Below are positions 15,548-27,605 of a stretch of DNA of 64,000 bases, piece after piece; positions within the stretch are counted from its first letter, which is position 1, and each line of letters opens with the position of its first letter. This DNA is from Seleniivibrio woodruffii. GTDB lineage: Bacteria; Chrysiogenota; Deferribacteres; Deferribacterales; Geovibrionaceae. A program made the translations under genes and the position numbers. Below the pieces are notes generated by a model. The model saw only the letters and a program-made list of their open reading frames with translations, was not told the DNA's origin and did no database searches. The stretch is from assembly GCF_004339245.1 (NCBI RefSeq), contig NZ_SMGG01000006.1, positions 1 through 64,000 of the forward strand. The letters are read 5' to 3'.

Positions 15548-15552
15548 CAGAA

Positions 15553-15572
15553 GGGGAGCTTTGCGCCTCCCC
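15553..15572 (+). terminator. Terminator hairpin of mscS, first copy (no T-tract)
   Basis: A GGGGAG / CTCCCC hairpin follows the mscS stop directly, but the sequence after it is CGGGTTG rather than a T-run. A nearly identical hairpin with a T-run reappears at 15718-15742, on the far side of a 144 bp repeat element. The pair looks like a target duplication. Confidence 0.7.
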
Positions 15573-15573
15573 T

Positions 15574-15717
15574 CGGGTTGTTGACAAAGTCTTAGTGTTA
15601 TGAGATTGCCACGTCACTTCGTTCCTCGCAATGACGTAAATAACTGTCACTGCGAGCGTAGCGCGGCAGTCTCATCACGGTGGCATGCCTGAAACTTCAG
15701 TTTGTCATCAGTCTGAT
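15574..15717 (-). mobile_element. MITE-like ~140 bp repeat inserted in a terminator, copy A
   Basis: The reverse complement of this stretch matches 27432-27572 with roughly nine mismatches over ~137 bp (counted by eye). The ends carry imperfect inverted repeats (GTTGTTGACAAAGTCTTAG at one end, GACTGATGACAAACTGAAG reading in from the other). The interior contains two GC-rich blocks, GCCGCGCTACGCTCGCAGTG and ATTGCGAGGAACGAAGTGAC, when read on the minus strand. It has no coding capacity. Both flanks are copies of the same terminator hairpin. Confidence 0.75.
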
Positions 15718-15742
15718 GGGAGCTTTGCGGCTCCCCTTTTTT
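15718..15742 (+). terminator. Terminator hairpin, second copy with T-tract
   Basis: A GGGAGC / GCTCCC stem followed by CTTTTTT. It probably still terminates mscS transcription after passing through the repeat. Confidence 0.75.
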
Positions 15743-15751
15743 ACCCAACAA

Positions 15752-27399: not shown

Positions 27400-27407
27400 G
27401 AAACCAT

Positions 27408-27431
27408 AAGGGCGGTCAGCTGACCGCCCTT
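27408..27431. terminator. Palindromic terminator of the MCP gene, first copy
   Basis: A perfect 24 bp palindrome centred on GGTCAGCTGACC, nine bases after the MCP stop. It lacks a T-tract. An almost identical hairpin with a T-tract lies at 27573-27600, beyond the ~141 bp repeat. Confidence 0.75.
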
Positions 27432-27572
27432 AGACTGATGACAAACTGAAGTTTTTGGCATGCAACCTTGATGAGACTGCCGCGCTACGCTCGCAGTGAC
27501 AGCTATTTACATCATTGCGAGGAACGAAGTGACGTGGCAATCTCATAACACCTAGACTTTATCAACAACCAG
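27432..27572 (+). mobile_element. MITE-like ~140 bp repeat inserted in a terminator, copy B
   Basis: Same element as 15574-15717 in the opposite orientation. It starts with AGACTGATGACAAACTGAAG and ends with AGACTTTATCAACAACC. It is again non-coding, between convergent genes, and bounded on both sides by copies of the same terminator hairpin (27408-27431 and 27573-27594). Confidence 0.75.
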
Positions 27573-27600
27573 AAGGCGGTCAGCTGACCGCCCTTTTTTT
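27573..27600. terminator. Palindromic terminator, second copy with T-tract
   Basis: A GGCGGTCAGCTGACCGCC hairpin followed by CTTTTTTT. It serves the MCP gene and, by symmetry, perhaps the convergent aldo/keto reductase gene. Confidence 0.75.
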
Positions 27601-27605
27601 ATATA

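Follow-up and report, generated by a model that had tools for sequence, protein, structure and literature searches.

Members of the IS1182 family target palindromes, and IS1272 and TnSha1 of staphylococci target terminators (PMC5678879, PMC4923244). These two elements use inverted repeats and terminator hairpins as targets in both orientations and with no sequence consensus, and they delete or replace the stem-loop with no target duplication (PMC5678879, PMC4923244). Three outcomes have been drawn for such structure-dependent transposition: the stem-loop is lost when its 3' feet are attacked, as the IS1272 data show; it is duplicated when the 5' feet are attacked (pathway b); and attack in the loop duplicates the loop (PMC5678879). 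Duplication of the whole stem-loop is drawn there as hypothetical pathway b only. ISCaa15, another IS1182 member, is flanked by 4-bp repeats (PMC3196728). Bacterial MITEs such as Chunjie, QMITE, Correia and RUP are IS-derived, non-coding elements of <500 bp with terminal inverted repeats and target duplications, and a review of them does not mention IS1182 (PMC10969869). Our literature search returned the IS1272 papers and background, and no documented case of whole-hairpin duplication. Long target duplications of 24-29 bp are known from the IS1202 group, and HUH insertion leaves no target duplication. ISfinder reportedly lists IS1182 direct repeats as 0-60 bp, and part of the present finding may already be recorded there.

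The window analysed here is a stretch of 64,000 nucleotides from Seleniivibrio woodruffii. It contains two copies of a non-coding element, one inverted relative to the other, and each lies between two copies of an intrinsic-terminator hairpin. The features are as follows.

15552..15573, no strand: hairpin copy 1 at 15.5 kb, AGGGGAGCTTTGCGCCTCCCCT, different from the 27.4-kb hairpin; terminator-like on the minus strand
15574..15715, minus strand: the element's other copy in the window, in inverted orientation, 142 bp
15600..15675, minus strand: REP-like interior of the inverted copy
15701..15715, minus strand: left end CAGACTGATGACAAA of the inverted copy
15716..15737, no strand: hairpin copy 2 at 15.5 kb, ATGGGAGCTTTGCGGCTCCCCT
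15738..15742, plus strand: T-tract of the original 15.5-kb terminator
27409..27430, no strand: hairpin copy 1, AGGGCGGTCAGCTGACCGCCCT; terminator-like on the minus strand, where it serves the aldo/keto reductase gene
27431..27572, plus strand: non-autonomous element, 142 bp, assigned as an IS1182-type MITE with interior type A
27431..27447, plus strand: left end TAGACTGATGACAAACT, consensus CAGACTGATGACAAACT
27471..27546, plus strand: REP-like palindrome-pair interior ATGAGACTGCC...GGCAATCTCAT
27558..27572, minus strand: right end CTGGTTGTTGATAAA (minus-strand reading), consensus CAGGTTGTTGACAAA
27573..27594, no strand: hairpin copy 2, AAGGCGGTCAGCTGACCGCCCT, duplicated on insertion; single in the same-genus genomes G001, G003 and G004
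27595..27600, plus strand: T-tract of the original terminator, retained only at hairpin copy 2

The original prediction described an element of about 140 bp at these two sites, and alignment of the two 142-bp copies confirmed it. They are identical at 131/142 positions with 0 gaps; the near-identity stands, and the 11 mismatches replace a count of about nine made by eye. The TGACAAA core proposed for both ends is real. On each flank stands a copy of the terminator hairpin of that locus, and the two loci have unrelated hairpins, also as predicted. Each flanking duplication is a palindrome, and the palindrome is centred on the duplication. The 27.4-kb element lies between convergent genes for a chemotaxis-receptor-like protein and an aldo/keto reductase, and the 15.5-kb element between a convergent small mechanosensitive-channel-like gene and a toxin-antitoxin-like pair, as judged by eye from the translations. 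A terminator scan placed the plus-strand site in the right-hand hairpin and the minus-strand site in the left-hand hairpin at both loci. The claim that only the distal copy keeps a T-tract thus holds for the plus strand, and the left-hand copies are terminator-like on the minus strand as well. At both loci the hairpin that each gene retains with its own T-tract is the one on the far side of the element. With a plus-strand site on the right and a minus-strand site on the left, both genes of a convergent pair retain the terminator distal to them. The two hairpin copies are palindromic and can pair with each other, so a single long RNA stem over the whole insert is possible. RNA folds of 27405-27602 and 15548-15744 gave about -86 and -89 kcal/mol (z -8.9 and -7.1), and Rfam had no match in the window.

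The orthologous intergenic regions of four same-genus genomes (G001-G004) were located by composite flank queries and then read. Past the orthologous receptor gene, the 27.4-kb site holds one hairpin in each of three relatives (AAGGGCGATCGACTGATCGCCCTT in G001, AAGGGCGGTCCGCTGACCGCCCTT in G003, AAGGGCGGTCGGATGACCGCCCTT in G004) compared with two in the window. At the C4:622 site of G001 and G002 both flanks are syntenic, with 63-64 bp and one hairpin between them. One hairpin was also found at the C5:196 site in G001 and G004, the C3:710 site in G001, the C4:50 site in G003 and G004, and the 15.5-kb site in G002 and G003. Since the orthologous empty sites have one hairpin, the duplication came with the insertion, as the original prediction held. 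This is unlike the IS1272 subgroup, as the stem-loop is duplicated (one copy in the empty site, two in the filled) rather than deleted. Empty sites with two plain hairpins, which the prediction had named as evidence against itself, were seen in none of the relatives' orthologous regions; one relative's site has two hairpins around a different insert. Filled relatives carry such different inserts at the 15.5-kb site (G001, G004) and at the C4:50 site (G002). In the last of these (L213, contig C9 of G002), an unrelated insert of about 110 bp occupies the same terminator, with a copy of the hairpin GCGGTCATAAGACCGC on either side. It may be another element using the same kind of target.

The element ends CAGACTGATGACAAA...TTTGTCAACAACCTG recur in the window's genome (G000), where about a dozen places carry them, and in its relatives. 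The end motif had 31 matches in the window's genome with up to 3 mismatches compared with 3 for the reversed pattern. With up to 1 mismatch it had 8-12 matches per strand in two relatives compared with 0 reversed, and among same-genus genomes 20 in G001 and 19 in G004 with none for the reversed motif. The excess over the reversed pattern shows that the motif is not a chance one. At least three interiors share these ends: type A, the REP-like palindrome pair of the window copies; type B, CCTCCTTTGGGAAAGGAGGG...; and type C, CTCCCCCTTTAATAAAGGGGGA..., and elements of the three types occupy different terminators. A strict catalogue across genomes comprises 24 MITE insertions with a measurable duplication, 10/24 of them free of mismatches. 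Nearly all of their hairpins are unrelated, and two loci (L106, L135) look like one site in two species. Copies lacking the flanking duplication had also been named as counterevidence; the second hairpin or the right end is missing at some loci (C4:50251 and the 15.5-kb site of G001 and G004). A stem of at least 6 bp directly precedes 39/71 end-motif matches compared with 4.8% of random window positions, which bears out the proposed preference for hairpins. The 71 include chance matches in genes, which make up many of the 32 with no 6-bp stem; some others of the 32 are diverged hairpins. The window elements resemble known MITEs in being short (142 bp) and non-coding and in having inverted ends, target duplications and several copies. 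They differ in that the duplication is a complete terminator hairpin and in that different interiors have common ends. A search of the plasmid collection gave no match.

IS1182-family insertion sequences with ends matching the MITEs occur in two same-genus genomes, G001 and G003, so the MITE-like character that was predicted and the autonomous transposase that was to be looked for are both found. Many G001 contigs break inside a longer repeat that has the element's ends and encodes transposase fragments matching NF033551. The G001 IS has the left end CAGACTGATGACAAACGCC and the right end CAGATTGTTGACAAACGCC; MITEs and IS have in common CAGACTGATGACAAAC at the left end and CAG(G/A)TTGTTGACAAA at the right end. 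NF033551 (IS1182), PF13751 and PF05598 are matched both by the Seleniivibrio fragments and by an intact Vibrio relative of 478 aa, whose element has ends of the same type; the Vibrio protein scores 488 bits against NF033551 at a cut-off of 270. A DDE transposase in the relatives' IS and a hairpin target are both as in the IS1182 family (NF033551). An order-wide search for an assembled IS near the Seleniivibrio one found only the contig-end fragments in G001 and G003, and elsewhere more distant transposases. In G001, 7/7 transposase-side ends pair without error with exactly one opposite end through an identical 20-bp hairpin, and G003 adds one contig-end pair, giving eight IS insertions read across contig breaks. 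A hairpin just inside the IS end (e.g. GACAAACGCCATGTAATTGCAATTACATGGCGTTT) was seen in Vibrio sp. CAU 1672 (L281) and in G001 (L189/L199), where target hairpin, end motif and inner hairpin stand in a row. The window's own assembly has no match to NF033551 or PF13751 and no IS1182 transposase, and the 142-bp non-coding window copies have no transposase inside. The window copies are therefore orphan MITEs. Most probably they were moved by IS1182-family transposases; an IS1182-type transposase would have mobilised them in trans, from an IS now lost or not assembled.

From its ends, its duplicated hairpins, the single-hairpin empty sites and a same-ended autonomous IS1182 element that duplicates whole hairpins, the element is very probably a MITE of an IS1182-family IS whose transposase targets palindromes, in practice intrinsic-terminator hairpins, and would attack them at the 5' foot. 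The substrate of the DDE transposase would be the palindrome in extruded form, either a cruciform or a hairpin on single-stranded DNA, and the enzyme would join the 3' ends of the transposon to the 5' foot of each arm. Both feet of a cruciform would meet at the four-way junction at any arm length, so the duplication would be as long as the palindrome, and gap repair would duplicate the complete stem-loop. Each convergent gene would then read into a distal hairpin with its own U-tract. Because that hairpin and U-tract are retained, the insertion would merely lengthen the 3' UTR and be nearly harmless. The outcome observed fits pathway b of PMC5678879, with the extruded intermediate inferred from sequence. 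A more tentative form of the same explanation has a single-stranded hairpin attacked, on the lagging strand or in a transcription bubble, in place of the duplex cruciform, with the same duplication. Hairpins form at terminator sites in the RNA, and possibly also when the DNA is single-stranded, and both orientations were observed (15.5 and 27.4 kb), as this variant would have it. Attack at both 5' feet requires both strands, however, and it is the duplex four-way junction that brings the feet together, although the two forms are not told apart by sequence data alone.

The length of the duplication bears on whether structure guides the reaction. In complete Clostridium carboxidivorans, full copies of a related IS (transposase 65% identical) have exact hairpin duplications at 11/11 copies, and exact palindromic duplications were also found in C. 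magnum (1/1) and Vibrio sp. CAU 1672 (1/1). The Clostridium IS duplications are 18, 21, 22, 24, 27, 34, 36, 37, 41 and about 50 bp long, and each corresponds to the palindrome to within a few bases. Measured lengths lie between 18 and 52 bp, and the exact repeats that are longest take in 1-2 bases beyond the stem. In the 20 IS insertions tested from Seleniivibrio and Clostridium, the outermost bases of the duplication pair at 6-8/8 positions (7/7 in the shortest), compared with an average of 25% paired in random segments of the same length. The scan for exact duplicates overlooked relatives with diverged or incomplete flanks, and their ends were read instead. The IS end directly follows a hairpin in Cricetibacter, Peribacillus, Photobacterium, Testudinibacter, Actinobacillus and Salinivibrio; near-identical hairpins lie on either side of a copy in a Bacillota MAG, and a C. 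bovifaecis copy has no duplication. IS1182 transposases of this subgroup are found in Deferribacterota, Clostridia, Bacilli and Gammaproteobacteria. In Clostridium the transposase frame is broken (L262, L274), into 196 + 264 aa in the C. carboxidivorans copy read and 108 + 272 aa in C. magnum, and C. carboxidivorans has many near-identical copies despite the broken frame in the copy read. A frameshift or recoding, or a dead family, is possible.

A transposase with a long, fixed staggered cut, like that of IS1202 (about 20-29 bp), which happens to favour terminators, would also give long duplications. The eight duplications of the Seleniivibrio IS all measure exactly 20 bp although A/T pairing extends past 20 bp in several, so a fixed length is possible for these IS taken alone, and the catalogued MITE duplications cluster at 18-24 bp. 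Against this, the related Clostridium IS lengths vary from 18 to about 50 bp within the bounds of the palindrome, and the transposase is of the IS1182 family. The likeness to the IS1202 group therefore ends at the unusual length, as the transposase family is another and the length follows the palindrome. A fixed cut is improbable. A fixed staggered cut does not readily give a duplication whose length follows the palindrome, whereas attack where the strands meet, at the foot of a cruciform, would give it directly. The predicted target duplication of about 20-24 bp is accordingly right for the window, where the flanks are 22 bp, and not as a fixed size, since related IS duplicate the whole palindrome of about 18-50 bp.

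Inside the window copies lies a REP-like palindrome pair, as in REP and BIME elements. The pair ATGAGACTGCC...GGCAATCTCAT also occurs solo, with no IS1182 ends, at C4:106386, C3:597707, C5:49274 and C4:173101 of G000 and in other families of the order, and one related genome has tandem repeats of it (L094). In two species the hairpin part of this REP-like interior contains a further insert, about 47 bp long (TTATTCG.CAA...GTGGACTCAT.CAGCC..CGGCT; L026, G000 C6:129823-130396; L126 and L133, G004). These are small elements nested in hairpins. A further insert, CCGGCTAGCCCGGTGCAGAAACA...AAATGTTTTG, lies inside type B and C palindromes (L043, C7:42418; L053, C4:50251; L040, C3:710710). A REP/BIME-type element moved by a RAYT transposase (HUH, IS200/IS605-like), an enzyme class that acts on hairpins, could be suggested by the interior (CATTGCGAGGAACGAAG... 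and its partner), a dispersed palindrome family found solo and across the order. It is very improbable, as the ends and the hairpin duplication are common to elements with quite different interiors, solo REP copies lack these ends, the ends match those of IS1182 IS, and a whole hairpin is duplicated where REP/RAYT would leave no duplication. Mobility is tied to the IS1182-type ends outside the REP part, unlike in REP and BIME. Equally implausible is that the element inserted between two hairpins already present, as tandem terminators (which occur at some genes) or host-recombination copies, given the single-hairpin orthologous empty sites and hairpin pairs that are identical within a site and different between sites at 8 Seleniivibrio IS and 12 Clostridium sites.

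Returning to attack on the extruded terminator, the balance tips modestly towards a subgroup of IS1182 transposases that recognises the four-way junction of the cruciform and attacks its 5' feet, so that structure, and not the enzyme, would set the duplication length. A duplication length set by the hairpin, a same-ended IS1182 subgroup in several phyla and MITEs spreading through terminators by this means are undescribed in the literature searched. The stagger with which a transposase cuts its target is normally fixed. The duplications described here instead comprise the whole palindrome, about 18 to 50 bp, so that a reaction guided by structure can be put to a direct test. These insertions are natural examples of the hairpin-duplicating outcome, which had been published only as a model beside the hairpin deletion of IS1272, and they form a genomic record of palindromes that could be extruded in living cells. 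They also explain how small elements can settle harmlessly in terminators. If the reading is true, the reaction of a junction-recognising IS1182 subgroup would mirror that of IS1272, and terminators would offer MITEs a safe place to spread, with transcription left undisturbed.
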